Source: Gonapodya prolifera JEL478 (lineage: Eukaryota > Monoblepharomycota > Monoblepharidomycetes > Monoblepharidales > Gonapodyaceae). From it: 64,000 nucleotides of DNA. The notes under the pieces were generated by a model. That model had not been told where the DNA came from. It saw only the letters and a list, made by a program, of their open reading frames with translations, and did no database searches. Shown in pieces: positions 4,160 to 56,737 of the stretch. Position 1 is the stretch's first letter, and every line of letters begins with the position of its first letter. The stretch is from NCBI GenBank assembly GCA_001574975.1, contig KQ965804.1, positions 124,353-188,352 of the forward strand. Reading direction: 5' to 3'. Position numbers and translations under genes: made by a program.

Positions 4160-7100
4160 ATGCTATCGAAGCCGTCCGCCGCAACCACACCTCTCATCCA
4201 CCTGGCTGCCCTGTCGGCGGCAAGTCCTCGGGCTTTCCAGACTGCCCTTGCGCCGAAACCCAAACCTGTCTCGGGCGTTCTGTCATTCTCGACCACCCCC
4301 CGTCCGAAACGGCCCCAAAATGCCTCTGCATCCTCGAACAGGTCCTTCCACGTCAAGCGGCCCGAAATGTTCGCTACTGCATCGTCATCCTCCCACGCAT
4401 CGTCGTCGCCCGAGCGAATGTTGATTCTCTACGGCAGCCAGACCGGAACATGCGAAAGCTTCGCGAAAACACTCGCATCCTTCTCCAAGTCCCGGGGCAT
4501 TGCCGTCAGCGTCCAGTCCATGGCCTCGTTCGTCGAGAGGGTGACATCTTCGGGAGGAGACGTCGTGTCTGCTCTTGGGCGGGAATCCAACGTTGTTCTG
4601 ATGACTTCGACGTTCTACAACGGTGAGCAATTCATTGAATCGGTGCAATGTCGATAATGGGTTTGAATCGTTTGTTTTCCTGCCACCAGGCGAGTTTCCC
4701 GACAATGGTGAGTAAACCCTTCCGTTCTCTCTATGTTCATTAAAGTACTTACCTTCTCTACTTTACACTCATAGCTCTTCCCCTTTGGAAGGTGTTTGAG
4801 CAGGCGAATACCGCAACCGCATCTCGAGTTCTCGCAAACACAAAGTTTGCCATCTTCGGACTCGGCAACCGCTCAAACAAGGTTTGTTAAGCTTAGTACA
4901 TCAAATTATGTAGCCCCCGCTCTCGTTGACACAGATTCTTCCCCACCTTTTACAGTCGAACTTCAACCTTGCAGCGCGCCGCTTCGAGAACCGAATCAAA
5001 GAGCTCGGCGCTAAAGAATTCGTCCCCGCAGGTGCGTTTCATTCTCTTCCTCCTCCTACTTATCGCCACAAATCTGACCCATCAACATCAACCCTCCCTC
5101 AAGGCTATGGCGACGAACTCTCCTCTTCCTCCCACGAAGCCGCCTTCCGCCCCTTCGTCAAGAGCATCTGGGCCGCTCTCGGCCACTCGTCGCGGTCGTC
5201 GACACTGCCCTCGGCGTACCGCATCCAAGCAGCGGCCCCCGGATCCAAGGCGAGCTCGGCAACACCAGTGGGGTACACCCAAGCTTCTGTGAAGGCCAAC
5301 AACGTTCTGTCGGGGAAAGGATTCGAGCGTGAGATTAGATTGATCTCGATTGACGCGAAGGGAGGGTACCCCGTTGCTGGACACGTCCTTGTGAGTTGCG
5401 CGAAGCAGTGGTGTTGCGATGGCCTGTCGACTCATGCCAACTCCACCCCACCTTCGCTAGATATCCACACCAAACACATCCAATACCGTCTCGCGTGCCC
5501 TCTCCGCCATTCAACTCCCGCAAGGACTTACCGCCGACACACTCGTCACCATCACCAGCATCGACAACCCCGCCGAGTCCTTCACGTGCACCGTGCGGCA
5601 GGTGCTCGAGAGCCACCTTGAGCTGCAGGGACTGGCAACGCGAAGCTTCCTTGAGGCACTCAGTGTTGTGGCAACCGATGCTAAGGAGAAGGAGGTCCTG
5701 ACGGAGACCGCTGAGGGAATGCAGGACGGGAATGAGTATTCCAAGCTGACCACGGGAGAGGTGCGTGTGTTGCCCTTTGTGCATGGCTTAGGCGTCAAGT
5801 TTAATTTCGATGCTTTTCCATAATCAGGTATTTTCGTTTGTGGACGCTTTGGAAAGGTATCCAAGTGCGAAGCTCTCTCTTGAGCAACTTCTGTCTACCG
5901 TTCCTCGCTTGCAGCCAAGGTACGTTCAACTAAAGACCTTGAATGTTTCCAGTATTAACTCTTATTTGTTCTTCATCAGATACTACTCGATTGCGTCTTC
6001 CCCCCTCGCCAGTCCAGATGCGGTCGACGTCATCTTTGGCAAGGATGTCTGGCCCACGCTGTCAAACCCGTCACGCAAGTTTGCCGGTCTGGCGAGCTCG
6101 TACCTTGCGAACCTGAAGCCCGGAGACAAGGTCGCGGTAAAGATCCAAGAATCGCCAATCAAGCTCCCGTCGCCAGACACTCCGCTCGTGGCTGTGGGGC
6201 TGGGAACCGGTATTGGAGTCCCTCGTGGTATTCTGCAGCACTACGCAGCGCTCAAGAAGAAGGGTGCCAAGATCACACCTGTAGAATTGTTCTATGGGTT
6301 CCGACACGACGACAAGGACAAGGTGCTGGCGAAAGAGCTCCTCGAATTCGAAGCACAGGGCTTGTGCAAGGTGAGAGTCTGAAATTGTCGCGGTTCACCA
6401 CAGTCCAATTTGCTCAGGTGTTGGTTCGTTTCAGCTCTCACTTTCTGCAATGGACCAAGGCTCTCTAGTCACAGAGCCCATCGCCAAATCAGAGAGCGTT
6501 GCAAATGCCCTACTCAACGCTCACGGTTCGTTTATCTACACAGGCCCCGGAGGCGTCGTTCCCCAAGCGGTGGAGCTCGCAGTCCAAGAGTCGATCGGAG
6601 CATCGCGACAACTACACCCCCAAGCAGCTGCAGCGGAACTCGCAGACATCAAGTCCAACACGTCGAAATGGATCGTGGAGGCGTACTCTCGTGAGATAGA
6701 TGTCGAAAATATCCTGAAGGCGTACACCTCCAAAGTTGAGGCAGAGAAGCCTCTCGCAAGTGTGTTCGAGAACAGCAAAATGTTGTGCTTCCAGTGCGAG
6801 CAGACATTCCAAGGAAGGGGGTGCACGACGTAAGTGTTTGTGCTTTTTACACAAGACCAACGTTCGTGTTGACTAATGATGGTTTGCCCTTGTCACCAAC
6901 GAAGTGTGGGAGTTTGCGGGAAGACTCCCCAAGGTAAGTCGACTGAAGCAAAATTGGAGGTTTGACCCTTGTCATAACGCGGTTGCTTGTAGTTGCCGCA
7001 CTTCAAGATCTGTTGGTCGATGTTGTGAAACGTCTTGGTTGGGTCAACCATCAAATCAGGACCGTCGCAGCGTCCACGAGTGGTTTGAGCCCTGGACTGT

Positions 7101-9300
7101 CTGACGCGATTAACAACCGCGAGACCGACAAGTACACCATGCTGGCTCTCTTCTCCACTCTGACGAATGTCAACTTTGATCCTGAATCCATCCGAGACTT
7201 TATCGTCCAAGTTCGGTGAGCTATGGCGTAGCGCTGCTATCATGACACGTCACTGATATCTGTCACAGAGAGCACACTGCAACACGCACAAAGCTCTATC
7301 ACGACATTTGCAAGGCTCAAAACGTCACCCCTCAACAATGCCCAACCCCCAACCTCTCCGGAAGTCTTACCGACCCGGATGCATTGGCTAAGAAGGGAGA
7401 GCTCGTCGGAATTCTCTCGAAATTCCGCACCGTGAAGAATGACGTTGTTGTTGGATTGGCGGAGATGCTTGTTTACGGACTGAAGGGCGTGTGCGCTTAC
7501 GGTGGTGAGTCAATTCTTGGGGGCATTCTTTGATCTTGCGTGAACTGATTCGAGATTTTATTTTCTCGTAGATCACGCCGTGTTACTTGGCGAATCAGAT
7601 GCGCGCGTGTTTAACTACGTCAACGAGGCTCTCGCATTCTTGATCAGCCCAGAGAGTGCCGATTTGAACGCCGTCGTGACCATGCTTCTTCGATGTGGCG
7701 AAGCGGTGAGTGACCGAAAGGCTTAGTGTCGCTAAACTAAATGTTGATCAACCTGACACCACCCAGAACCTTGTCACAATGGACACACTCCACCGAGCAA
7801 ATACGAAACGTGAGCAGCATTTGCGGGAGTAAAGTATTTGCCAAACTTTTACTGATCGATTTTGTGCCATAGATGGTCAACAATCACCCGCCCAGGTCAC
7901 AGTTGGGCCGACACCAGGAAAAGCCATCCTCATTTCCGGGCACGACATGAAATACCTGGAGGAGCTTCTTGAGCAAACTAAGGGAACTGGGATAAACATT
8001 TATACTCACGGCGAAATGCTTCCCGCGCACGGATACCCCAAGCTCAGGGAGTATGGCAACCTGGTTGGCCACTTTGGAGTCGCGTGGCAAAGGCAGAGTA
8101 AGCAACAATCGCCGTTCCCCTTTCTCCCCACACTCACCTTCTCTCCATTTCAAGCGGTCGAGTTCCCTCACTTCCCCGGGCCTATTGTTATGACATCAAA
8201 CTGTCTTGTGCCACCGAAAGATGATCTTAAGGATAGAATCTTCACTGCTGGGTGAGTAATTACTCACGAATTTGGTTTCGACACATACCAATCATTTCTA
8301 ATTGTTCTAGAGCTGTTGCTTTCCCGGACTGTCCCAAAATCGAAGGATTTGATTTCTCCAGAGTCATACAGAAAGCGCAGAGCATGAACGGCTTCCGAGA
8401 AGCTGATACTGAATTCACATACCCACTTGACCGTAAGTTTCCCACCTTGTCTTCCTTTTTCATTTTGCTCAAACTTCAACGGCAGCATTCGGCAAGCCTG
8501 CAAAGTCTTACAACGTTGGATTTGCCTACGAGACTGTGTTGTCTGTCGCCCCTCAAGTTATCTCGGCGATCGAGAAGGGAGATATCACACGCTTCTACTA
8601 TATTGGGTAGGTCCCACGATGCGATTATCCAATCGATCTCATTTAACATGAAATTTACTAGTGGATGCGATGGTTTTGAGGGAGAGAGGAACTACTGTGA
8701 GGCTTGCTTCGTTCCGATCCGTCGCCTTGTCGTCTCATCTCGCTGGACCCCCAGATACCGAGCTTATGGAGAATCTCCCGCCGACGTCCGTTGTGTTGAC
8801 AAGTGGATGTGGGAAGTACCGCGTTCTAGGTGACAAGCTGCAGTATGCTACCATTGGAGACACGGGAATACCGCGCCTGTTGGACTTGGGGCAATGCAAC
8901 GATGCGTACTCCGCCATCAAAATTGCGGTCGCGCTGGCTGAGCACTTTAAGTGCGGCGGTATGTTAAGTCGCTTTTCTACAAAACTGAGGAATGGGAGCT
9001 GACGACGAACTCAAAACAGTCAACGACTTGCCACTTAACCTTGTAGTCTCTTGGTTCGAGCAGAAGGCGGTCGCAATTCTCCTCACCCTGCTTCACCTCA
9101 ACCTCAAGGGGGTAAGTCTCTGCGAGTGCTATGCTAGGAGGGTTTGCCTTTTCTCATTAGTTCTCCAATAGGTGCGAATTGGTCCACGACTACCCGCATT
9201 TGTTCGTCCTGCCGCTTTGGATTTCCTTGTCGAAAAGTTTGATCTGAAAGCTATTGGGGATCCCCTGGATGATTTGAAAGCGATGACGGGAGGGAAGTAA
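4160..9300 (+). CDS. Diflavin reductase-hybrid cluster protein fusion
   Basis: Predicted 1,272-residue protein from 22 exons: 4160-4622, 4690-4707, 4775-4881, 4956-5031, 5104-5390, 5461-5760, 5828-5919, 5980-6370, 6435-6829, 6905-6933, 6993-7215, 7269-7504, 7572-7705, 7767-7809, 7873-8097, 8155-8251, 8311-8432, 8486-8606, 8662-8696, 8755-8958, 9020-9111, 9172-9300. Phases join throughout. Residues 1-85 lack Asp/Glu until about 69 and are rich in Ala, Ser, Arg and Lys, like a mitochondrial presequence. Then come a flavodoxin domain ([16 protein letters not shown]), an FAD domain (PRYYSIASS), an NADPH domain ([17 protein letters not shown]), a linker of about 30 residues, and complete Hcp from about 694 (MLCFQCEQT). 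Hcp cluster ligands are all seen: CX2CX8CX5[36 protein letters not shown] and WFEQKA. The family reduces NO or hydroxylamine. Here the electron donor is built in. Confidence 0.9.
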
Positions 9301-9555: not shown

Positions 9556-12500
9556 CTAATTTATTACAGTGTCATTAAAAAATTCATGGCCCACAACTTC
9601 CTCTGCACTGGGTCTGTTGCCCGGGTCTCGCTGCAACATCCAGTTGAGAAGCTCAAACGCCTGCTCCGACACCTGATAAGGAAATCGTAGCTCTTTCGAG
9701 GTGATTTCGGCAACGTCGCGGAAGGGGTTCTCGGAAAATAGGAGGATGTGGAAAAGAATACCCAGAGCCCATATGTCCTGTTCTGGACCGCGATACGTGT
9801 TGCCTTCTAAGACTGTTGGAGACATAATGTCAAGTGTTGTTTGGGATGCGTAAGTCTGTGGAGACGGCAGATCCTTTACCTTCCGGAGAGGCATAATCAA
9901 GAGTCCCGCAAAAAGTGGTAAAGTTCACTCCTGGTCCATAGAATGCCGCAGAGCCAAAATCAACAATTGTAACATCAAGGTTGTCTGATACAATCACGTT
10001 TTCATCCTGAGAAAAATGCAAGATGTACAAGCAACGTTGGCGAATTCGACTTCAGGCTTGAAACTACTTCGGTTGAGTGCTGCTCATACCTTGATATCTC
10101 TATGCACAATACCCTTCGCGTGAAGGTATGCGACCCCTTCTACGACCTGTTTGAAGATATGACGTACAATCCCTTCAGGTATTCGATGACTACCCTTTCC
10201 AAGGTACATCTCGACATAGTCAAACAGATCCGCGGAACCAAGACATGGCATGACGACATAGAAGTACTTTTCATCGGCAAAAAAATCTACCAGATGCGCG
10301 ACGTATGCAGAGCGCTGAGGATCTTTGCGTATCTTATCCAGCACAACAATCTCAATTGGGACCTTGCCCAGCTCGGGATCACTTGAGTACCTCGAAGCGG
10401 CGATCGAAGAGCGATGACAGTGCTTGATCACGTAAGGTGTTCGTGACGGGTCGCTTTTCAGGTAAGCCTTGCGGACAAATCCAAATGCCCCCGGTGCACC
10501 CATGCGGGGTCCCACAACGTATTTGGCGAGTCCTCTCGCAACAACGTTTTCATTCTCATTGTCAAGTTTGCGTGGAGGCAATTTCTTCATTGTGATCTCG
10601 GAATCCGACATCAGATTTTCAGGAGAAGGCTTGTGGAAACTCGATGCTGCTTCTCTGCCAAGATTGGCACTAGGCAATATTGAACCTTCGCTCCTTGAGC
10701 CCCCGGCCACTTTCATTCCCGACAAGAATCCACCACCAGGTGCTCCGTTATCAATTCCATCAGGGACCGCAGCCACGGTTGCAGAGTCTACTACCGTTAG
10801 CCCCACCGATTGCGAATCATCACTCGATCTCCCCATTTCCCCGTATGGCAGCTTTCTATGCAATTCCTCTTCACCCGTCCGCATCATTGATGCCGACATA
10901 CTCGCCACCTCTCTGAGTGCAGTAGTACCAGTCATCCTCTCAACTGTATCATCATTGTGTTCCTCTAAAAGGACCCCTGGGTCAAATGCCACTGATTTCC
11001 ACAGTCCAACTCCCGGGCGAGCACGGTGAGATGCGTCCGTCATTGTACACACACTCTTGGAAAGGTTGCCCGCTGACGGAATACTCCTGCGATGGTACGC
11101 GATCCATACTGCAAGCACATCTCCACCTTTGTCTCGCAGACGGCGGACTTGAACGGAGACTGAGAGATGGGTGCCATCACGATGTATTGCGGTCGTGGGA
11201 ATTGCCGGGGAAATTGGGGAAAGTGGTCCGGCAGAAAGTCCGGCCGATGAAGCAGATGCCGGCGAACCAGTCGAAACCGTTGGAGAAGGAGAAAGGAGAG
11301 ATGTTATGGCAGGCAGAACGCGCTCCACGGGGATGCCTTCAGCAAGATGATGACCCGAATACCCCAACATGTACTTCGCAACACTATGGTTGCATTTGCT
11401 GATGATGCCTAAAGAGGGCTGTTCGGCAGCAAATGATGACGATCCCGCCGACAAGTCAGGTCGAACCACGAGCAATCCTGCAACATAAGGAAGTGCATGC
11501 AATCTCAGCACAAGCATTCCTCCGTCCTGCTCTTCATCGTTCTCCCCAATCTCGTCTTCTCCTCTTTCGTCATCGTCCATTTCACCGCCACCCTTGGACA
11601 ATACTTTCAGCACGCAGGGTACACCAGCGCCCCCTGCATCCACTGCGCAGAAATACTTTTCCTTCATCACTCTGCCCATGCTATCCTCGAGCCAAGACCC
11701 TCCAGGTGTGCCACCTTCGGGACGCAATGATGGCACGACATCCCATAGTTGGTATCCTGACAGTGCAGATGCGGACATGCCAAAAAGATCCCGCGCAGAG
11801 GAGGTAGCAGAAATGATGCAACCCTGGCGGAAGAGAACAAAAGTAGTCCACCTTACACTTGAAGACGGTACAACCCCCTCAACCACTTACGTCGGTTCTG
11901 ATTCTCACAGCACATTCCAGCTCGTCCACCGGTTGAATCAGCCAGACCAATACAACTCGCGAGTCTTTATCCTCCCGGGTATCGGGAGGCTTTTGCCCTT
12001 TGCGCACCACCTCCTTGACCCATAAACTGGCGGCCGCCGTGGTACCATTAACGCGCTGCACTCGGATGACCTTGCCATTGCACCGCACACCGCCCGCACT
12101 GTGGGCCCGACTTTGTTCAGTAGTCTGGAGGATCCGCTGGGCGCCCAGGATGAAACGATCCACGCGGGCGCCAATGGACTCCTCTGGGTCGGCGCCAAAG
12201 AGAGAGCGGAAGACAGAAGGATGGGCTACAGTTAAGACCTCCCCCATGAGACTGGTGGTAAGCGCTGTAGAATTGGAGGTGGCATGCAACGTGGGTGTGT
12301 GCAATGGTGCTTTGGATAATAGGAAATCCGGAGATTGTTGTAATGCTGACCCTAAGGGTGGTGATGGGAGAGAGGATGGTGTTGAAATGAAGGGCGATTG
12401 GACAGGTTGCTTGGAAGGTGATTCCAATGGAGATCCTAGGATGCCCAAATGCGAGGATGCCTGACCTCCATGGACTGGAGGCGATGGCAAGGGCGATGGC

Positions 12501-15060: not shown

Positions 15061-16621
15061 GACTGCCGCCACCGACGTCAATGCACCCTCGACAGCTGTG
15101 GAGGTGAAGCCCTCCATTGAAGCCCTCAAGGTAGCTTCCAAGGCTGCTGTACCTATTTCGACGGACAAACCGCGCAATCGAGCCCGGCCCGTCGCTACGA
15201 GGAGCAATCCGCTGCGCTCAGCGACCTGGCGTCTCCCGACATCGAAGAAAAAGTCTTCCCACAATACATTCCTGCGGAGTACCCTCCAATTCCCGTCCTG
15301 GAAGTTGTTGATCGTGGGTGCCCGTTGATTATTTTGTCCATCTTCTCACATTTCTCACACAATCTTCTACACAATCATGATCTTCAACAGGCGGTCTCAG
15401 AGCCGACCCCAAAAAGCGATCCTTGCTATCTGCTGCCACCAAAGTCATCCACCTCACGCCGACCATCGGCACGGAGCTGCACGGTCTTCAACTCAACAAG
15501 CTCACCGACCAGCAAAAAGATGAGCTTGCCCTGCTCGCCGCCGAACGTGGCGTCGTGTTTTTCCGAGACCAGGACATCTCGGTGAAGGAACAGCTCGATC
15601 TGGGCCGCTATTATGGACCCTTGCACTTCCATCCCACGACGGGAGCGCCAAAGGACCACCCCGAGGTGCACGTCGTGTACGCCGACAAGAAGTAAGTCCG
15701 TTAATGCGATCACACTTCTGAAGGTCGACCACCAATGTAACGCCCGGCCCGCTCCCTTAGCTCTGGTGACCTATTCGCCTCGAACCACACCCGTCAATGG
15801 CCCTGGCACACTGATGTCTCGTACAGCGCCAGCCGCCGGGTCTGACCTCCCTCAGCAGGTCACGGTGCCCCACGTCGGGGGGGACACGCTGTGGGTCAAC
15901 ACCTATCAGGCCTACGAGACCCTTTCTGTGGAGCACAAGGAGTTGATCGAGGGCAGGTTCGCGGTACACAGCGCAAAGGTAGGTTGCGGTTTTCATCGGC
16001 AATGGGGTCTGAACAGATCTCTGACCGTTTCCAACCTCCCCAACCGTTATTTTGTGGCCGTGCAGGAGCAAGCAGACAACGGCATCAAAGCCGGCCATCC
16101 GCTCAAACGCGCTCCCGTCGACCATGAGCACCCCATCGTGCGGACGCACCCAGTGACGGGATGGAAGGCGCTGAATGTGAACCCCATATTCACGCGCCGG
16201 ATTGTAGGACTGCCCAAAGACGTGTCTGGTGAGCCTTGCTGGACAAAGGCTTGCTGGTGTGCTAGTGGCTGAGGTGTTTTCGCAATACAAAGACCGTGTC
16301 CTCCAGTTTTTGTACGACCACATCTCGAACGGGGAGGACTTCAAAGTCCGCCTGAACTGGAAAAAGAACACCGTGGCTGTGTGGGACAACCGCAACGTGA
16401 GTACCGACCACGCTCTTCTCTCTGTCATGGTTCCTAGACCTCTTACTTTCACCTCCCTCAACAAGACAATCCACTACGCCATCACGGATTACTACCCCGC
16501 CCGCCGGCATGGCGTGCGCGTAACCCCACACGCCGAGGCGCCATTCTATGACCCACAGAGCAAGGGACAGTTCGAGGATGTCGTGGCGCGGGGGTACAAG
16601 GGCGGGGCTCTTGGGGTATGA
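15061..16621 (+). CDS. TauD/TfdA-type 2-oxoglutarate dioxygenase
   Basis: The gene resembles fungal sulfonate/taurine dioxygenases (Jlp1 type), Fe(II)/2-oxoglutarate enzymes that release sulfite from alkyl sulfonates. Visible motifs are LTPTIGTELHGLQL, ERGVVFFRDQD, FHPTTGAPKDHPEVH, the metal ligands in WHTDVSY and IHYAITDYYPARR, VGGDTLWVNTYQAYE, and the 2-oxoglutarate-binding Arg in ARRHGVR. At least four introns join well, including 15691-15758 and those near 15979, 16229 and 16397. Two frame changes have no convincing intron: one between the first 40 residues and RRYEEQSAAL (about 15180), and one just after WHTDVSY (about 15828), where one extra base would explain it. The gene is therefore either decayed or carries base-call errors. 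It converges on DGAT2. The symbol is withheld because the substrate cannot be told from sequence. Confidence 0.75.
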
Positions 16622-21667: not shown

Positions 21668-23069
21668 CCCCCTCTCCCCCCCCGACCGCAACACACCTTC
21701 TCACACAACCTCAACGTCTCATCCCCGACTTTCCGCACTGCCGTACCGTCCGAGAACAGCCCGCAGGTGGGCAAGAGCACGGGCGTGTGTTCGCGCAGCG
21801 ACTGCAGCATGGCGGTGCTGGTGGCCGCGTTGACCCCGATGATCTTGACTTCGGGGCGGACGCGTTTGATGTAGCTTTATTTGTGTGGGGGGGTTGGGGG
21901 TTGAGGAAGGACATGGGACAAGGGGACGAGAAGCACAACCACCCACGCGGCAATCCCGGCAATAAGCCCCCCCCCGCCGACAGAGACAAACACGCCGTCG
22001 AGCCGGTCCTGGTGGATCTGTTTGAGAATCTCCATGCCTACGGTGCCCTGGCCGGCGATGACGAAGCTGTGGGGATGTAACGGGGCGTGCACGGTTAGTT
22101 TGTGATTGGAGGTGGAGTTTGAAGTGACGTCCGACGACGCACGACGCCCGGTGGCTTTTACGTGCCATCGTCAATGTCAAAGCTTTCTCCGGTTTTCTGC
22201 CCTTTCAATGTCAGTACTCGCTCCGATTCTCTACCACCTCCAGATGAAGAGTCTCCCCCCGAGCCTCCGACCTCAACAACCACTCACGGATCGTCAAAGG
22301 GTGGCACAAACGTCATTCCTTCTTCGTCTCTGAGGCGCAGGGCCTCCGCTTTGGCCTGGTCAAAGTCGTCGCCAAAGAGGACGACGCGGGCGCCGAAGGA
22401 GCGGACTGCGGACACTTTAATTTCCTGGTAAAGTAGGCAAATGGAGTCCTTTTGAGCACGCCAGCGACGTCAGGACGCGCAAATGGTTATTGAGAGACTC
22501 ACGGGCGCAAAGGTCGGCATGACGATCGTGGCCTTAATGCCGAGTTTCTGCGCCGCAAGCGCACACCCTTGAGCGTGGTTCCCGGCGCTCATGGTGACGA
22601 TGCCGTGATCGCGCTCCTCCTGTGTTAAATTCGCGACCTTGTTGTAGGCGCCCCTGCACTTGAACGAGAAGACCGGCTGGAGGTCCTCCCGCTTGAGGAA
22701 GAGCTTGTTTGCGAATCTGTTTGACAGGCGGGGTGCATGCTGCAAGGGCGACTCGATGCAGACGTCGTACACGCGCGCGGTCAGGACCAGCCTGAGGTAG
22801 TCGATGTCGTCCTCGTCGATGGGCTCTGTGGGGTTGAGCGCGGGCGTCACGGAGCGGTGCGGGACCTGCGCGGGGCGCGGGATGATTGGGCTTGGAAACT
22901 CAAACGGCGGCGGCGCGAGCGGCTTGAGCGGGGTGCGCGGCGAGTTGAGCGACGCGCGGTGCGGGCGCGGCACGGGGTGCTGCAGGTCGTGGATCTGCGG
23001 CAGCTGCGGCAGGAGGGGGAGTTGCGCGTGCGGCTTGGCGAGGGATGGCGGCGGCGGCAGCGATTCCAT
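20103..23069 (-). CDS. ILV1: Threonine deaminase (threonine dehydratase)
   Basis: A PLP enzyme converting threonine to 2-oxobutyrate, the first step of isoleucine synthesis, normally mitochondrial. Exons on the minus strand: 23069-22503, 22424-22288, 22066-21947, 21874-21697, 21435-?, 21203-21160, 21097-21003, 20928-20844, 20769 onward, ending at 20103. Motifs are [31 protein letters not shown] (the PLP lysine lies in SFKCRG), [24 protein letters not shown], the PLP-phosphate loop [20 protein letters not shown] and SGANV/NFDRL. A C-terminal regulatory (ACT-like) region contains [14 protein letters not shown]. The N-terminal 75 residues are Pro/Ala/His-rich, and a start further upstream in the same frame is possible. 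One intron, 21696-21436, is unusually long for this window and holds a 71-base homopolymer. Confidence 0.88.
21596..21666 (-). repeat. 71-nt C/G homopolymer inside an ILV1 intron
   Basis: The plus strand reads 34 C, one A, then 36 C. On the coding (minus) strand this is a G tract, so the pre-mRNA would carry G36-U-G34. It sits within the intron bounded by a GTGTGT donor at 21696 and a CAG acceptor at 21438-21436, 261 nt long against the usual 50-80. Such runs can form G-quadruplexes and slip in replication. The true length may differ from the assembly. Confidence 0.9.
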
Positions 23070-23500
23070 CGTGGGCCGGTGTGCGGATTGCGGGTGGGCG
23101 GGGGTTGTGCATGGGAGCTTCGTGTGCGACGCCAGACCCTGTGTCCGCAGCAGAGCACCGGCGCATCCGTTGCACCCCATCTGACTCACGCCCACTCTCC
23201 TGCACTGGTACTGTTCACACGCTTGGCCCTGGACTTTCCTCATAATCATTTTCCCCGAATGTCTGAGCATGCAATTTGGGCAAACTTCTTGGCAATCTTT
23301 GTGTTCCATCTCATCTGTTTTGTGTTTCCGAAAATGGTGGCGTCAACAAACACAAACAGGTTCTGTCTGTTTACCACCTGTTCTCGCGGTTCCAACACAG
23401 ACCCACCTCCCTCACTGTCCATGCATCGCACGGCTTGTGCACAACATGTCCCACCAAAACCATAGAAGGAGAAAGTGCACGCCCCCCCACACTTTATTGT
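23070..23500. promoter_or_regulatory. Upstream region of ILV1
   Basis: The minus-strand deaminase frame stays open up to 23309, so an N-terminal extension is possible. Beyond that no gene is supported, and the DNA becomes AT-richer towards the island that starts near 23.5 kb. Confidence 0.35.
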
Positions 23501-25393: not shown

Positions 25394-26230
25394 CTACTTT
25401 GGCATGGGTTTGGTAGCCTTAGACTTGCAGAATGTTGCAACAGTGTAGTAGAGGAAATTGCGGTCAAGAATTAATCTACAAAAGAGATGGTGAAAGTGCA
25501 TCACTGCAAATAACAAGACCAAAGAGCTCACTTGGCAAATACCTTTGATACATCTTCAGCAGACTATGCCTCAAGACCAATCAGGTGGTTATCAAGTGCA
25601 GAATGCAGGGAAGTATCAAACACCCATGATGTGTACCTCCTACCACAAAGTGCATATGCAGTTGCAGTGCTCCCAGTTCCCATGCTTAGAATCACAACGT
25701 GGTTGCTGGTGTACTGAGGCTGACACACCCCCACCCTAGAGAGGTACCCCCACCAAAAATATGAAGCACCCCCACCTTCAAAAGTATTGTAATGGTTATA
25801 GGAATGGAATTTCATCCAATAATCTTCTCAACACTTATTGCATCTATTCTATTTCCTTCCTCGGCAAGCTCTACCTCCAGTACCCTCATCATCAGTTGTC
25901 TCCCTTCCCTGCTTCCTGGTTGGTCTTGTATCTCTCCCAGCTGCTGCCCTAGTCACAACACCTGTGCTACACAACCTAGGTGAGCTGCATGAGCCTGTAA
26001 ACTGCAGGAACATGTATATATGATCAGATGTACATAGCAAGACGTGATGTGCATAGAACTCACCTGCAGGAACGTGATGCCAAACTTAGGGCACGTCCTG
26101 CAGGTGTNATGTGCATAGAACTCACCTGCAGGAACGTGATGCCAAACTTAGGGCACGTCCTGCAGGTGTGCACATCTAAACCCGCGGCCACAGTAGTGGC
26201 ACAGCAGCTAATACCCAACACTCATACTAC
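25394..26230 (-). pseudogene. Methyltransferase-like gene fragment, C-terminal half
   Basis: The minus strand encodes NHVVILSMGTGSTATAYAL followed by CGRRYTSWVFD. This closely matches the AdoMet-binding motif of N4/N6-type DNA methyltransferases (usually DPFxGSGTTxxAAxxxGRRxxG) at the place where it ends such proteins. A spliced C-terminus follows (DRNFLYYTVATFCKSK, stop near 25394). Upstream pieces include a Cys-containing exon (VHTCRTCPKFGITFLQ) with a good donor, and a basic, Arg/Gly-rich exon. The usual acidic/aromatic residues of the motif are replaced, and the frame appears broken, so I treat it as a decayed paralogue of the gene at 26400-28074. It could also be the downstream part of that same gene. 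Confidence 0.4.
26046..26169. repeat. Exact 61-nt duplication around a single N
   Basis: Positions 26047-26107 and 26109-26169 are identical and are separated by one N at 26108. The unit contains an inverted repeat of about 15 bases (CACCTGCAGGAACGTG near its start, CACGTCCTGCAGGTG near its end). The pattern is what an assembler leaves when two contig ends overlap but are not merged, so the duplication is probably an artefact. Confidence 0.85.
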
Positions 26231-26399: not shown

Positions 26400-28074
26400 C
26401 AAATGCACCTGAAGCAGATACTAGTGCCACAGTAGGCTTGGACATCTGAGGTGGTGTGTGTTGGACTAGCAAGATGTTTGTAGTGAGATTCAAGGCTCAT
26501 AGCACAAGTAAAAGAAAAAAGACAACACACTACCTTCATCAAGATCAGATCCAATTTCCTCAGCCTCCTTGTCCTCATCCTCCTCCACATCATCCTCATC
26601 ATTGTCATCATCCTCTTTGTCTTCATCCTCGCCATTGTTATCATCCTTGCCAGACTCTTTTGCCTCGACATCAAGGTAGCAACTCACAAAAACAAGTTCT
26701 CAGTTCTGACTGGTGAAATAAATTGATTTGCTCACCGTCTTTTGGAATCTGTGGCAACTTAAAGACATCTTTTTCGTCCCAAGCATCCTTCTCATCCTGG
26801 TGGTCTCCATTCCTGCCTCTCTTCTCAGAAGCAAGTCGTTCTGGCACAAAGTTGCAAAAGGACTGGGCAATATACTGGAGCTTCTTCTTGTTGGAATGAA
26901 GTAGCCTATCAACAGTACACCAGAGGTTAGTTGGATAAGAGTTAGTTATTTAGTAAGGAAATAACACTTGCATGTAGAAGGCATTGAAGGCATCCTTGCT
27001 AAACTCATCCTTTTGCTTGGCAAAGAGGCTGTCAACACCACTAAGAACTTCACTGGTCAGTGTCATGCCATAGAAGCGACGCCCAAGGGAAGTAGAAGCT
27101 ATGGCAAGGGATCCACACCCAACAATAGGTGCAAAAACAGTGTCACCAGGGTTAGTAGTAAGGAGAAGGACCTCCATCCAGACTGAAATAGCAATTTGGC
27201 AATTGTAAAGAGGCAATTCTGCCTTCTTGCCAGGTGGAATTGTTTTCTGGGAAGTACAAAGGAGTATTTGTGTTGAATTTTGCAAAGCAGAATGGAACAT
27301 CAGTCTTACCAGAATCTCCATCTTGTGCAGCTTAGATGGACCAAACATTGCCAATGCAAGTGGGGACNNNNNNNNNNNNNNNNNNNNNNNNNNNNNNNNN
27401 NNNNNNNNNNNNNNNNNNNNNNNNNNNNNNNNNNNNNNNNNNNNNNNNNNNNNNNNNNNNNNNNNNNNNNNNNNNNNNNNNNNNNNGTTTTTTGACTTGG
27501 TAGAGGTTGGTGTCTCTCCCATATAGATTGTGTGGAAGGTGTGACATCCAACTCCAAAGTAGTCAGATTGTATAGCCATATACGTGGCTGCCTCAACAGC
27601 CTGTAGAAGCAAGCAGACAGTGTCAAGATAGACTTTGCTTTTAAAAAAAAACAGATAAATACCTCCAGAATAATGCTGTCATCTTTCAATATATCCCTGT
27701 AACAGTTTTGACGAATTGAACGCAACATTAGTGATGAGCCCTGTTTGAGATATAGCTATGATATGTATGGGCACGAATTTTTTGTCACTTACAACACTGT
27801 CAACCCCCTGAGAGTTCGTCTGCAAAACAATCAATGAAGCGCCACATTCCTTATCTGCCTCCACTTGCTCGTCTCCACAAAAAGTTAAGACATTGGAGGA
27901 GAAGGTGTTCTTCTCTGCCTGCCAAACAACTGGATCCACAAAGGGAACACGGAGCTGAGGCTTATCGGCTTCATCGAGTTCCTGGGAACAATATGCAATG
28001 CAGGATTTGTATTAATACATGTGGTGTGCAAGAGATAAAGTACGCACCTGTCTCAGAGGATCAACTTGTAACAT
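26400..28074 (-). CDS. DNA methyltransferase-like protein, degenerate motifs
   Basis: Exons read from an ATG at 28074 (28074-28048, 27981-27793, 27740-27661, then 27600 down into the N-gap). They give FVDPVVWQAEKNTFSSNVL, ASLIVLQTNSQGVDSVV, then after the gap NPGDTVFAPIVGCGSLAI followed by ASTSLGRRFYG. A Lys-rich segment and a very acidic tail (NNGEDEDKEDDDNDEDDVEE) complete it. The order, a D/N-PP-Y-like position first and the FxGxG AdoMet loop near the end, fits the beta-type N4/N6 DNA methylases. However, the catalytic tetrad is QTNS-like and the AdoMet loop is altered, so activity is doubtful. Spliceosomal introns join in phase at most junctions. One junction, near 26940, could not be resolved. 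It lies in an AT-richer island and may be foreign or transposon-derived. Confidence 0.5.
27368..27486. other. Assembly gap, 119 N
   Basis: A run of undetermined bases inside the methyltransferase-like gene. The number of N may be a size estimate rather than a true length. Confidence 0.99.
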
Positions 28075-36509: not shown

Positions 36510-39500
36510 GATTTGTCATGTTTTTCAAATAGTGCTCTAGCAACCGGGAACTCTACACAAAACTCCCGTTGCCCCTTCAAGCGCACATCGTCCGCGTACA
36601 GGTCCAAGCTTCTGCGTAACAAGGATAAATGTTCTGTCAAACTCGGATGCGCGTCGACCCAATCAGAATACTGCTGTGGTGTCCAGGAAAACCTTTCGGT
36701 GGGAAGAAGAAGAGTGCCCGCGGGTGATCTGCTATAGATGTGCTGAATAATCAAGGGCGGAGAAATGCCCGAAGCGGTGGGAATATCGTTCAGCTCTAAG
36801 AAGAGCAAGGACTTCAACGACCTGAGGGCTCGGTACTGAGCAGTCAGCTCGGCGTCTTTCCCTTCGTCAAGACCCCCTTTGACACCACAATCGGTGATCC
36901 ACGTGTTCACGACGAACTCAAATTGGGCGAGATCATTCGCGAGTCGAAGTTTCCCGGCATCACCCAAACGTATCATAGTGGCGTTGCGTAGAAATATTTG
37001 CAGCAAGCGAACAGCCAAGGAGCGGATCCAGCTACGAGGTTCGTCGTTCTCAGACTGCAGAATATTGGGTGAAAGACGTGCAAAAACATTGGTGGTCATC
37101 CAACGAAGCTTCGTACTAAGCTCTGGGAGATACGGCGAGAGTTCGTTTGGCCGGCTGCTCATGTGCTCAGAGGTAGCCGTTGTTGGAGGAACTTGCCCTA
37201 CATGAGACACCCCTCTGCAAACAACTCAGTTGCCGGGTCTGCAACACGCACCCATCACCGTACTTACCTTCCAAAATCCACCGTGTGCATCTTCAATATG
37301 ACCAACTCTAACTCTCTTCCCAGTCCACGGAGCAACGGTTCTACCACGCTCATTATGACACTTCGAACGTCATCGAGGTGCTCATGAATCTTAAGAAACA
37401 ATGACCCCGTCGGTTCGGCTTGGTGATTCTCGGCTTTTCCAACCAGAGAATCCGGGGTGCGTGGAGGCTCAAACTCATCTACAAGCTTCCAGCAGCCTTC
37501 TTCGAACGTCCAAAGTGCCACAACCAAGTCCAAATTATTAAACAGTGGTATTGTGTTTATTGCAACACCGGTTGGTGCACCCGGTCCAACTGGACCAGTT
37601 TGAGTAAAGACGGCGAATGGTTCATGACTGATCATGGCCTCGCCCCGTTTAGCGACTTCTCCAACCATCCCCGCCACAACGGAAACAACTTTTTCGAAAA
37701 ACTCGTGGTGGAAACGAGCAACTTCAAGTTCCGAGTGAACGGCACGCACACACTTCTCAGCATCCACTGCAGTTGGCATCTGTGCGCGCGAAGCATTCGG
37801 AAATGCATACTGAACTGGCTCAAAGAGTCTCGACTGACACCGAGAAAGGTAAGCAGTTTCGTACGGTTGCAAAATCCCGATGAAGCTGTTGATAGGTTTC
37901 CAATTTACTTTGGAATATATGCAGATACTCTGAATCGAGCACAAACCTTTTAAATCCACTCCCTTCTGGTGCAGTCTCGGTCCGTTTCATGTTCCCGGCA
38001 CCGTCTTTTGCTCCATCAACTTCAGAGGTCGTTGCGATGGCCACTTTCTCACTCAATTCAGTTACCATTCTCAACAACCTCGGATAGCTGCGCTGGAAGG
38101 TTGCCTGCAAATGCGTTGACTGGCTTCCTGCTGTTCGCAGCGCAGCGGCTGTCGCCATTGCTGCATGATGCCAAAAGAAAGCCGTGGGAGTGGCCGTCGC
38201 ACCAGCTTTTTCTTGTTGCAATGCTGCCGACTCCCCCCATTTTGTTGTCCAACCCCATCCAGGAGAGTTTACAAGTTCTACCAGGAGAGCAACCTGCGTC
38301 TCGGTATCTCTCCGCAGGGCAAGAACGCGCTCCAGAGCTAAAACTCGTTGAAAGCAGGCAAACGTTGTATCAGCTGCAAGGCTGAGGCGAGTCCACATTT
38401 GTGCGGTGAATGCACTGGACTGTGCTTGCGTGGTTGGCTCGTACAGTTGAGAATTGTTAGAGTTTGAAAGCTGCGATCCATTGGGCTGTACCACACGTTT
38501 CCCTGTCCCAGGAGCACTCATGCCAGGTATTGGGATACCAGCTGCTCGAGATAAAGCAGGCACGTCTGCTGCCTTCTTCCAAGCTTCGTTGGTTTGCTCC
38601 ACAATAGCAACAAGAACATTATGCACACGACGTGGAAGAGCTGTTCGGTCCAGATTTCGATGAATCACGAGGGCAGACGAGAGTGACGCAAGGGCAACTG
38701 AAGTTGGGGCTTGAAGTGCTTCCGAGATGGAGGCTGGTGTTTGGTCCAGTACTGTGACTTTGGCGGAAAGACCGAGCACACCATTCATGATGGTGTCAGC
38801 GTGATTGATTATGTCCTTGCGAGATTGTGAGATAAATTCCAATTCTTTCTCCACGACGGAAATGCCCGACAAGTCTGATTGCAAACAGAGTGCATCAATC
38901 TCAGACAGTGTGAGTGCCGCAGCACCAAGTTCCACTTCACGCGAGTTGATTATGCGAGTAGATGAAGGGCCAATCGCTCCTGGAGAGGTCTCTGTCATGT
39001 TTGTGGGCGGCGCCTCAGCTGCCGACTTCATTTGCAGTGTGAGCCGTTTCTGAAGGGATAGGAAACGAGAAATTTTGCGGAGATAGTCCGCAGCCACAAG
39101 AGCTCTGGATAGTTGCGTTGTTAGACTACTGAGAGCGTTGTACGGTGCCGTTGTCTTGGCTTTTATCCTTAAAAATGAACCACCACAATAAATCCCACCC
39201 ATAATGATGAACAAAAAAAAAACAGAAAGTCACCTATCCACACTTCCTTGCAACTCAAGGACAGCCTCTTTAAGAGTTTTGAGTTGCTCGCTCAAGTCGG
39301 CCAGTCCCGTGACTTGCTGTATTAACTCTGAATGGCGCATTGTCACCTGTCGTTCCCAGTTACGCGAGACAGAAACCATGTCAATAGTAAGAGGTAAAAA
39401 AGGTGACGTTCTCTTCCGCCAGAACAGAAGTCAAACCCCACCTGCTCATGAATGCTCCGGGAGAGGACATCAAGTTGAACTTCAAGCTTCGCGATAAGCG

Positions 39501-54605: not shown

Positions 54606-56737
54606 ATGTGCGGCCGAACGGCGCTCTCTCTGGTGCGCATCTTGTACTCTGCTCCCCATGCTCCCTCGGCGTGCCTTCTTCCCCTTCTTTAACATCAACT
54701 ACCGCTGTGTCACCCGCAGGCACCAGACCAAATAAAGGCATCCACGGGCGTTTCGAACTGGGTTGATTCCGTGGGTGCTCTCCTTACTCCTCTCCTCGCT
54801 CTTTTCAATCCGTCCACCCCGCTCCTCTCCTTCCCGCCGTCTTCGCATTCTTGCCGAACTCCGCACCTGACTCTCCACCTCCAAACCACACAGGACAAAT
54901 ACCGCCCCTCTTACAACGTCGGCCCCACGCGCTACCAACCCGTCCTCCTCCTCGACGACACCGGCCACAAATACATCCGCTCACACAAATGGGGCCTGAT
55001 CCCGTTCTGGACGAAATCCACCCCCGACTACACGTCCCTCGCGCGCATGATAAACGCGCGGGACGACTCCCTCGTGGGGCCTGGAGAGAAACCGGTGTTC
55101 AAGGGGGTCAAGAATAAGAAGCGATGCGTCGTTGTCGCGGAGGGGTTTTTCGAGTGGGATAAGTCCCGCGGCAGTGGGACCAAAGTGCCATTTTTCGTGC
55201 ATCCGACATCCTTCTCTGGGCCGCCTCCTCCGTCTCCGCCTTCCGCCTCGCCGCCACCGCCACCTCACACAACGACCGACACCGACGCCACTGACGATAG
55301 CTCCGCGAACCCCCCACAAACTCCCACGTCACCCGAGATCCAGCGCAGGGACTTACTCTACATGGCCGGGCTATGGGACAAAGCCACTATCGATGGTGAG
55401 GACCGTGGACCGGCGGGGTGGTTTTGGGGTGGCGTGAACGCGTGGACGCACGTCAACCACACTCACACGTGTTTCCCCAACAGGAGAGGATGTATACTCG
55501 TACACGATTGTCACGACGTCGTCTTCATCGTCCTTGGGGTGGCTGCACGACCGCATGCCCGTCATTCTGTCAACCTCCTCTCCTTCCTCTCCGTCCTCTC
55601 CGTCCTCTTCCCCCCCTCCCACAACACTCCCTTCCTCCCACTCTGCGGCCACAGACCGCACCCCCATCGACATTTGGCTCGATCCCGCCATCCCAATCAC
55701 AGACTCGCGCGTCGCGTCGCTACTTAGGCCTTACGAGGGACCGGGGCTGGCGTGGTACGCGGTCAGCGGGGTCGTGGGGAGCGTGAAGAATGATTCGGTG
55801 GTGGGTTTGGTTGAGTCCTGTTCGTTTGGTGATGTTTCGTTGAGGAACTTTCCTCTGTATTGCACACGTGCACTCCCGCACTCATTGCGCGCACCCCACC
55901 CATGCCATCCCTTATTCGAATAAACAGGACTGCATCCGTCCGGCTAATCCCGACGATGTCGCTCGTGCCGCCAAAGCCAAGAAAAGCGGCACTGGTCCTC
56001 CGGAAAAGGGGCTGCAGAGTATTGCCGGGTTCTTTGGAAAAGGGGGGTTTAAGACTGGTGGCGGTGGTAATGGCGGAGGAGTCAGCGCGGCGCCGACGCA
56101 ACCAAACTCGCCCAAAGGCCACACGGAGGTGGCAATGGCGACGCAGCCGAATGGGAGAGACAGTGCGGGCGATAGGGAGCACGTTGTGGACGTGGACGAT
56201 GGGGAGGACTATGACGTGCCGCGCGATGACCCGCCCGATGACGTCGTGGGGCCTGCGTCACCTGAGGAAGCGTCGGCTGTGACGCCTGTGACGCCTTCAA
56301 AAAGGAGGCGGCTGTTGGAAACAGATTCAGAGGGCGAGGGCGAGGGGCAGGAGCAGGGAGGGCGCGGTGCTGGTAGGGAAAAGGAAAAGGAAAAGGAACG
56401 GCGTGAGGGTGGGAATGGGAATGGGAATGGGACACGGACTGTGCCGACACCGACACCAGTGACACCGCAGGCGAAGCGAAGACCTGTCGATGGCGGTGGG
56501 TCTGCTGGATCCCCCGCTGGTACTGCTGCGGTAGCGGGTGGTGGTGGTGGTGATGTGAGGTCCGGTGGAACGACCCCGCATAGGGCCACGTCGAGTCCCG
56601 GTGGGAGCGTTAGCGGGAGTGCCAAGGCGAAGGCATCACCCGGTGGGAGTAAAAGTGGGTCACGCGGAGGGAAGGGCGGTGGTAAAGGTGCGAGTGGGGG
56701 GCAGCAAAAGCTGACGAGTTTTTTCCATCCCAAGTGA
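54606..56737 (+). CDS. HMCES: HMCES / SRAP-domain abasic-site crosslinker
   Basis: SRAP proteins shield abasic sites in single-stranded DNA by a thiazolidine crosslink from Cys2. The start MCGRTALSL places Cys at position 2. Other SRAP blocks are DKYRPSYNVGP, HKWGLIPFWTK, ARMINARDDSL (catalytic Asn), RCVVVAEGFFEWDK (catalytic Glu) and LHDRMPVIL (catalytic His). An insert of about 60 Pro/Thr residues splits the domain near 55210-55330. The C-terminal tail is long, Gly/Ser/Lys-rich and disordered. It holds two PCNA-binding-like boxes: QSIAGFF near its start and QKLTSFF at the very end. The first intron (about 54633-54718) has a clean donor; the one before DKYRPS is less certain. Repair at replication forks is the likely role. 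Confidence 0.88.

Follow-up and report, generated by a model that had tools for sequence, protein, structure and literature searches.

The window, that is, the whole stretch of 64,000 nt that was analysed, contains a gene on the forward strand in which a diflavin-type reductase is joined to a hybrid cluster protein (Hcp), an iron-sulfur enzyme with a proposed role in nitric oxide removal. We found that 22 exons join in one open frame at 4160–9300, giving a spliced translation of 1272 aa, and GT-AG borders occur at 21/21 introns, which are 53–75 nt long. The exon count and phase proposed in the initial annotation were thus borne out. The parts of the gene are as follows.

4160..9300, + strand: whole gene, 22 exons, 1272 aa (spliced frame, GT-AG at all 21 introns)
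4160..4405, + strand: N-terminal leader, residues 1–82, presequence-like in composition, with a putative role in targeting
4424..5150, + strand: flavodoxin (FMN) domain, residues 89–237, exons 1–5 (Pfam)
5280..6103, + strand: FAD-binding domain, residues 281–489, exons 5–8 (Pfam; R448 and S451 kept)
6179..6686, + strand: nucleotide-binding region, residues about 515–662, exons 8–9 (NADPH signature lost)
6435..6829, + strand: exon 9, with the reductase end, the linker and the Hcp start (splicing, codon scores)
6687..6779, + strand: linker, residues 663–693 (31 aa)
6780..9297, + strand: class I hybrid cluster protein, residues 694–1272, exons 9–22 (Pfam, NCBIfam, cysteine spacing, ligands)
9298..9300, + strand: stop codon TAA

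Several other features were noticed in the window. The fusion gene is adjoined by a Ser/Thr protein kinase (10087–11886, − strand) with sub-threshold PAS matches before it, which makes it PAS-kinase-like, and a further kinase piece was recognized by eye at 9556–10051. Three TauD/TfdA-type dioxygenase frames, the last one just below the cut-off, lie at 15381–16618 (+), and the N-terminal part of a PLP-dependent (PALP) enzyme lies at 22473–23342 (−). In addition, there is a sub-threshold N6/N4 DNA methylase match at 26953–27678 (−) within a low-GC stretch (24–28 kb, 42–45% GC), and a tandem duplication of 62 nt with an N at 26044–26167, perhaps an assembly mark. A COG5 Golgi subunit (37823–39229, −) and a SRAP protein (54693–55724, +) were also found. 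The introns and the COG5 gene mark the host as a eukaryote. Meanwhile, the tRNA scan and the Rfam scan of the window gave no matches.

The reductase half starts with a Flavodoxin_1 match (residues 89–237, E = 1.3e-24) followed by a FAD_binding_1 match (residues 281–489, E = 7e-32), both over the Pfam cut-offs, and this order of domains is that of the diflavin reductases (CPR/BM3/CysJ). The flavodoxin domain, which is expected to bind FMN, includes GSQTGT and NGEFPDN; the FMN-stacking aromatic is not seen at its usual place in the alignment rows displayed, which counts against an electron-feeding flavin module, although a splice border falls at that place. Furthermore, R448 and S451 of the putative FAD site are kept, and the corresponding R and S are present in 31/31 bacterial diflavin reductase rows. 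Among solved structures, this half is closest to CPR and to bifunctional P450/P450 reductases, for example BM3. Reductase relatives were present in 81 of the 299 genomes in the sample of the Zymomonas phylum, where the best nine matches have open frames of 1075–1175 aa, and in 4 of the 199 genomes in the sample of the phylum of a Clostridiaceae MAG. By eye, two of the bacterial reductase frames (L078 and L079) resemble P450 fusions, and another (L083) has an apparent molybdopterin-type oxidoreductase part before the diflavin reductase, which would be another diflavin fusion.

The C-terminal half was identified as an Hcp, as had been proposed, by a Prismane match at residues 694–1265 (E = 6.8e-130, over the Pfam cut-off) and by two NCBIfam hydroxylamine reductase models that were passed with 636 bits (cut-off 367) and 593 bits (cut-off 361). 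It also matched the solved structure 7de4, which we take to be E. coli Hcp, with E = 6e-127. For comparison, 67 loci were used, of which 57 gave full-length Hcp open frames (534–603 aa) and 8 gave shorter ones. The spacing C-X2-C-X8-C-X5-C of the fusion protein is common to 35 of the 57 full-length frames; the X11/X6 spacing is found in 17, all of them from the Zymomonas phylum sample and all in a separate clade of the tree, and the other five have other spacings. We take C-X2-C-X8-C-X5-C as the mark of class I; the class labels follow the literature, and the exact spacing was read off the aligned rows. By its cysteine spacing and its full-length core, the Hcp half is assigned to class I, and the class II spacing (C-X2-C-X11-C-X6-C) is not found in the fusion protein. 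As a side observation, eight shorter Hcp-like frames of the Zymomonas phylum sample (L029–L036, 451–494 aa) align only from about Hcp residue 113–157 on, and no N-terminal Cys motif was found in them by pattern.

In the alignment of 56 bacterial Hcp rows (the duplicate L010 was left out), the four N-terminal Cys and the seven hybrid-cluster ligand positions, presumably H, E, four C and E, are invariant in 56/56, and all 11 are kept in the fusion protein. In addition, 100 of the 110 columns that are identical in at least 55 of the 56 rows are kept. However, two His that are invariant or nearly so among bacterial Hcps are replaced (N994 and K1048), which counts against the reading as an electron-fed class I Hcp. 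The initial annotation had called for separate phylogenies of the two halves; the one built, for the Hcp half with bacterial Hcps, placed it on a branch 1.56 long and not within any supported small group, and we name no donor lineage. According to an excerpt of PMC10502027, class I Hcps are found in bacteria, archaea, and unicellular eukaryotes.

The two halves meet inside exon 9, which encodes the last reductase block, the 31-residue linker, and the first three Hcp cysteines, with the Hcp starting from Met694; there is neither an intron nor a stop codon at the junction. To score the codons, each exon was left out in turn and codon usage was trained on the remaining exons of the gene. The score of exon 9 was +17.0 in the read frame versus −12.9 to −34.7 in the other five frames, and that of the linker alone was +6.0 versus at most +0.8. 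The Hcp start within the exon (50 bases) scored −2.1 versus at most +1.5, but it is too short to discriminate. Furthermore, the splice from exon 9 to exon 10 restores C-X2-C-X8-C-X5-C by putting the fourth cysteine in position, while reading on without splicing intron 9 meets an immediate TAA. Splicing and codon scores thus agree with the exon borders (6435–6829) and the in-frame junction given earlier. Because the junction lies within exon 9, with gene-like codon bias, a splice to exon 10 that fits, and a TAA if unspliced, a single transcript across both halves is likely. A bacterial-type promoter scan at the junction found none, a scan that has no weight for a eukaryote.

It might be argued that the locus gives two products, namely an early-ending reductase transcript and a separate Hcp beginning at Met694 (6780) through an internal promoter or alternative splicing. 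The Hcp half indeed begins with Met at the position where bacterial Hcps begin, and the TAA in unspliced exon 9 comes soon after the Hcp start. However, the codon bias continues up to and across the linker, the reductase half has no stop codon of its own, and retention of intron 9 would leave a reductase still bearing a piece of Hcp. We therefore regard two products as very unlikely. An artefact of the assembly or the gene model is more improbable still: the N within the 62-nt tandem repeat is in the same window, but it is located at 26 kb, and the junction is in frame within one exon, with homology on either side and matching codon bias. The fusion of a diflavin-type reductase to an Hcp, which the initial annotation had described, is confirmed at the sequence level by Pfam domains in one frame, and it is real and unusual.

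To our knowledge of the samples searched, the same fusion was not seen in bacterial genomes, plasmids, or viral contigs, and no second species was found there. The bacterial sampling comprised two phyla (those of Zymomonas and of a Clostridiaceae MAG). Hcp relatives were present in 28 of the 299 genomes of the former sample, where none of the 28 matches listed has an open frame longer than 588 aa, and in 151 of the 199 genomes of the latter, with a longest frame of 620 aa among the matches listed. On the 31 bacterial reductase loci examined, no open frame of at least 300 aa had an Hcp match. A bacterial origin of the fusion was considered and set aside, since it was not seen among the sampled phyla, plasmids, or viral contigs. 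None of the 170 matching plasmid records covers 80% of residues 83–1272. Single-protein queries found no relatives in viral contigs; the profile search of IMG/VR found four Hcp relatives (L098–L101) in frames of 326–544 aa, and no reductase match was present in frames of at least 100 aa on these four loci. Beyond the two phyla, a family search, which reports presence but not frame length, gave matches for 5 out of 14 control genomes. Among the matches listed in the literature search (titles and abstract starts), no description of the fusion was found, which agrees with the initial annotation, to which no described eukaryotic protein of this make-up was known. A hybrid cluster protein and a P450 reductase are mentioned together in only two of 5.39 million papers; one of them, PMC6397501, names Hcp and CPR separately in the part that was available and states no fusion.

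The initial annotation named NADPH as the electron donor, and here the result is different. The fusion protein was aligned with 31 bacterial diflavin reductases, and 31 columns were inspected, including seven NADPH-site positions chosen beforehand. These positions and their presumed roles (the S-R...K-x-Y-x-Q and C-G-D signature) are those of CPR. S, R, K, Y, Q, C, and D are present in 31, 29, 27, 30, 31, 31, and 30 of the 31 bacterial rows, respectively. In the fusion protein, the same positions are A, M, a gap, L, T, T, and P, so 0/7 are kept; with an alternative gap placement S is kept and R becomes A, and R, K, and Y are lost in both placements. The changed Cys is the one that we take to be catalytic in CPR. 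Several more near-invariant positions differ too (P522 to L, A527 to G, P528 to V, Y564 to L, and M620 to V), and NAD_binding_1 scores 14.8 bits, under the Pfam cut-off of 22. The label of an NADPH-specific diflavin reductase was therefore rejected as unsupported.

Meanwhile, the nucleotide loop retains its G, G, T, and G, and R530, G554, D561, V590, and G615 are likewise retained. The terminal aromatic of the reductase is Y (W or Y in 29/31 rows), and the Asp before it (30/31) is Glu here. In addition, the IYTGPGG block is similar to CGP stretches that occur in frames close to six hcp genes of the X11/X6 type, out of 17 such loci inspected; these frames were selected by that motif, and one of the six has CGPGG. 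From their position, we presume that these frames are Hcr. The likeness of TGPGG to CGP is a hint of NADH use, and the reductase half may be an NAD(P)H reductase, perhaps an NADH-using one.

Alternatively, the nucleotide site could be dead, and the flavin module could receive its electrons from a different carrier, either ferredoxin or a separate reductase, or be mainly structural. All seven selected positions are altered or gapped, the presumed catalytic Cys included, and the NAD_binding_1 match is below its cut-off. However, the loop G, G, T, and G as well as R530 and D561 are retained, the TGPGG stretch is like the CGP stretch of the putative Hcr reductases, and a useless module would be expected to decay, yet the frame is open from end to end. 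We consider a dead site unlikely, although it deserves some weight.

Known systems share some features with the fusion protein. P450 BM3/CYP102 and CPR have the same FMN-FAD-nucleotide order and are the best matches of the reductase half. However, their identity to it is about 25–31%, the fusion lacks their NADPH signature, and its partner is Hcp, not heme. E. coli Hcp/Hcr (class II) also pairs an Hcp with an electron-supplying flavoprotein, and its Hcp gave the strong 7de4 match. In contrast, it has the X11 and X6 spacing and no fusion, and Hcr is a separate NADH reductase with FAD and [2Fe-2S], unlike the fused module here. The class I Hcps of Desulfovibrio, Methanothermococcus, Clostridia, and Zymomonas share C-X2-C-X8-C-X5-C, the ligands, and about 39–51% identity, but they are stand-alone, with open frames of 534–603 aa in all full-length loci examined. 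The class III Hcp of Methanobacteriales likewise has an electron-transfer domain, rubredoxin, fused at the Hcp N-terminus; as excerpts of PMC10502027 describe it, however, this archaeal homodimer has rubredoxin only, with no flavin module, and the role of the rubredoxin domain is unclear. Pyruvate:NADP+ oxidoreductase (PNO) carries a CPR-type module on a Fe-S enzyme in eukaryotes, and this PFOR plus CPR arrangement is a precedent for a fusion of this kind (PMC3129679, seen as an excerpt). PNO differs in that PFOR rather than Hcp is the partner, the CPR module is C-terminal, and NADP is the nucleotide in its name. The 1272 aa have no Pfam match to a PFOR domain, so the protein is not a PNO.

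Taken with these features, the locus probably encodes a single polypeptide whose diflavin reductase module, of the CPR/P450-BM3 kind, supplies the attached class I Hcp with electrons. The most likely route would be NAD(P)H to FAD, FMN, [4Fe-4S], and the hybrid cluster. The self-contained electron chain of the initial annotation (FAD, FMN, [4Fe-4S], hybrid cluster) thus stays the best reading, while NADPH as its source does not. The likeliest reaction would be NO to N2O, since high-affinity NO reduction is reported for E. coli Hcp in the part of PMC7412212 available; hydroxylamine would be an alternative substrate. According to section 4.3 of PMC10210160, NAD(P)H would reduce class I Hcp exergonically under assumed potentials, but with the help of a partner enzyme. 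For Chlamydomonas Hcp4, however, the donor proposed in PMC4773151, again in excerpt, is reduced ferredoxin and not a flavin reductase, which counts against a flavin donor.

A further reading keeps one fusion protein and gives its Hcp half a different job. Peroxide removal is an Hcp activity, and such a job could be this or protein S-nitrosylation. What Hcp does is a matter of debate, and an S-nitrosylase role is discussed in excerpts of PMC7412212. However, a fused electron supply best suits a reductase, and all cluster ligands are retained in the Hcp half; a different job is rather unlikely, less probable than a dead nucleotide site. Returning to an electron-fed reductase, its location may be read from the leader. 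The first 69 residues contain 1 acidic and 10 basic residues; by composition only, the leader fits a mitochondrial presequence and suggests that the protein is active in mitochondria or in a related organelle. A mitochondrial proteome is reported to include one algal Hcp (PMC7412212).

Tentatively, the protein could be a eukaryotic single-chain, NADH-driven, organelle-targeted reductase of NO (or hydroxylamine), made of a diflavin module re-tuned off NADPH and a class I Hcp. This complete reading is possible, but its probability is well below that of electron feeding as such. If it is true, the fusion would give a physically linked donor for class I Hcp and a eukaryotic NO-reductase route besides P450nor and flavodiiron proteins. 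A natural fusion is informative here because two 2023 papers (PMC10210160 and PMC10502027, both as excerpts) describe the class I Hcp electron donor as unknown. It points to a flavin reductase that would deliver electrons to the N-terminal [4Fe-4S] cluster of class I Hcp, and this could be tested on one polypeptide. If active, the protein would be a eukaryotic sink for NO and perhaps a source of N2O, in addition to the candidates from microalgae (CYP55, flavodiiron proteins, and Hcp) that are named in the excerpt of PMC7412212.
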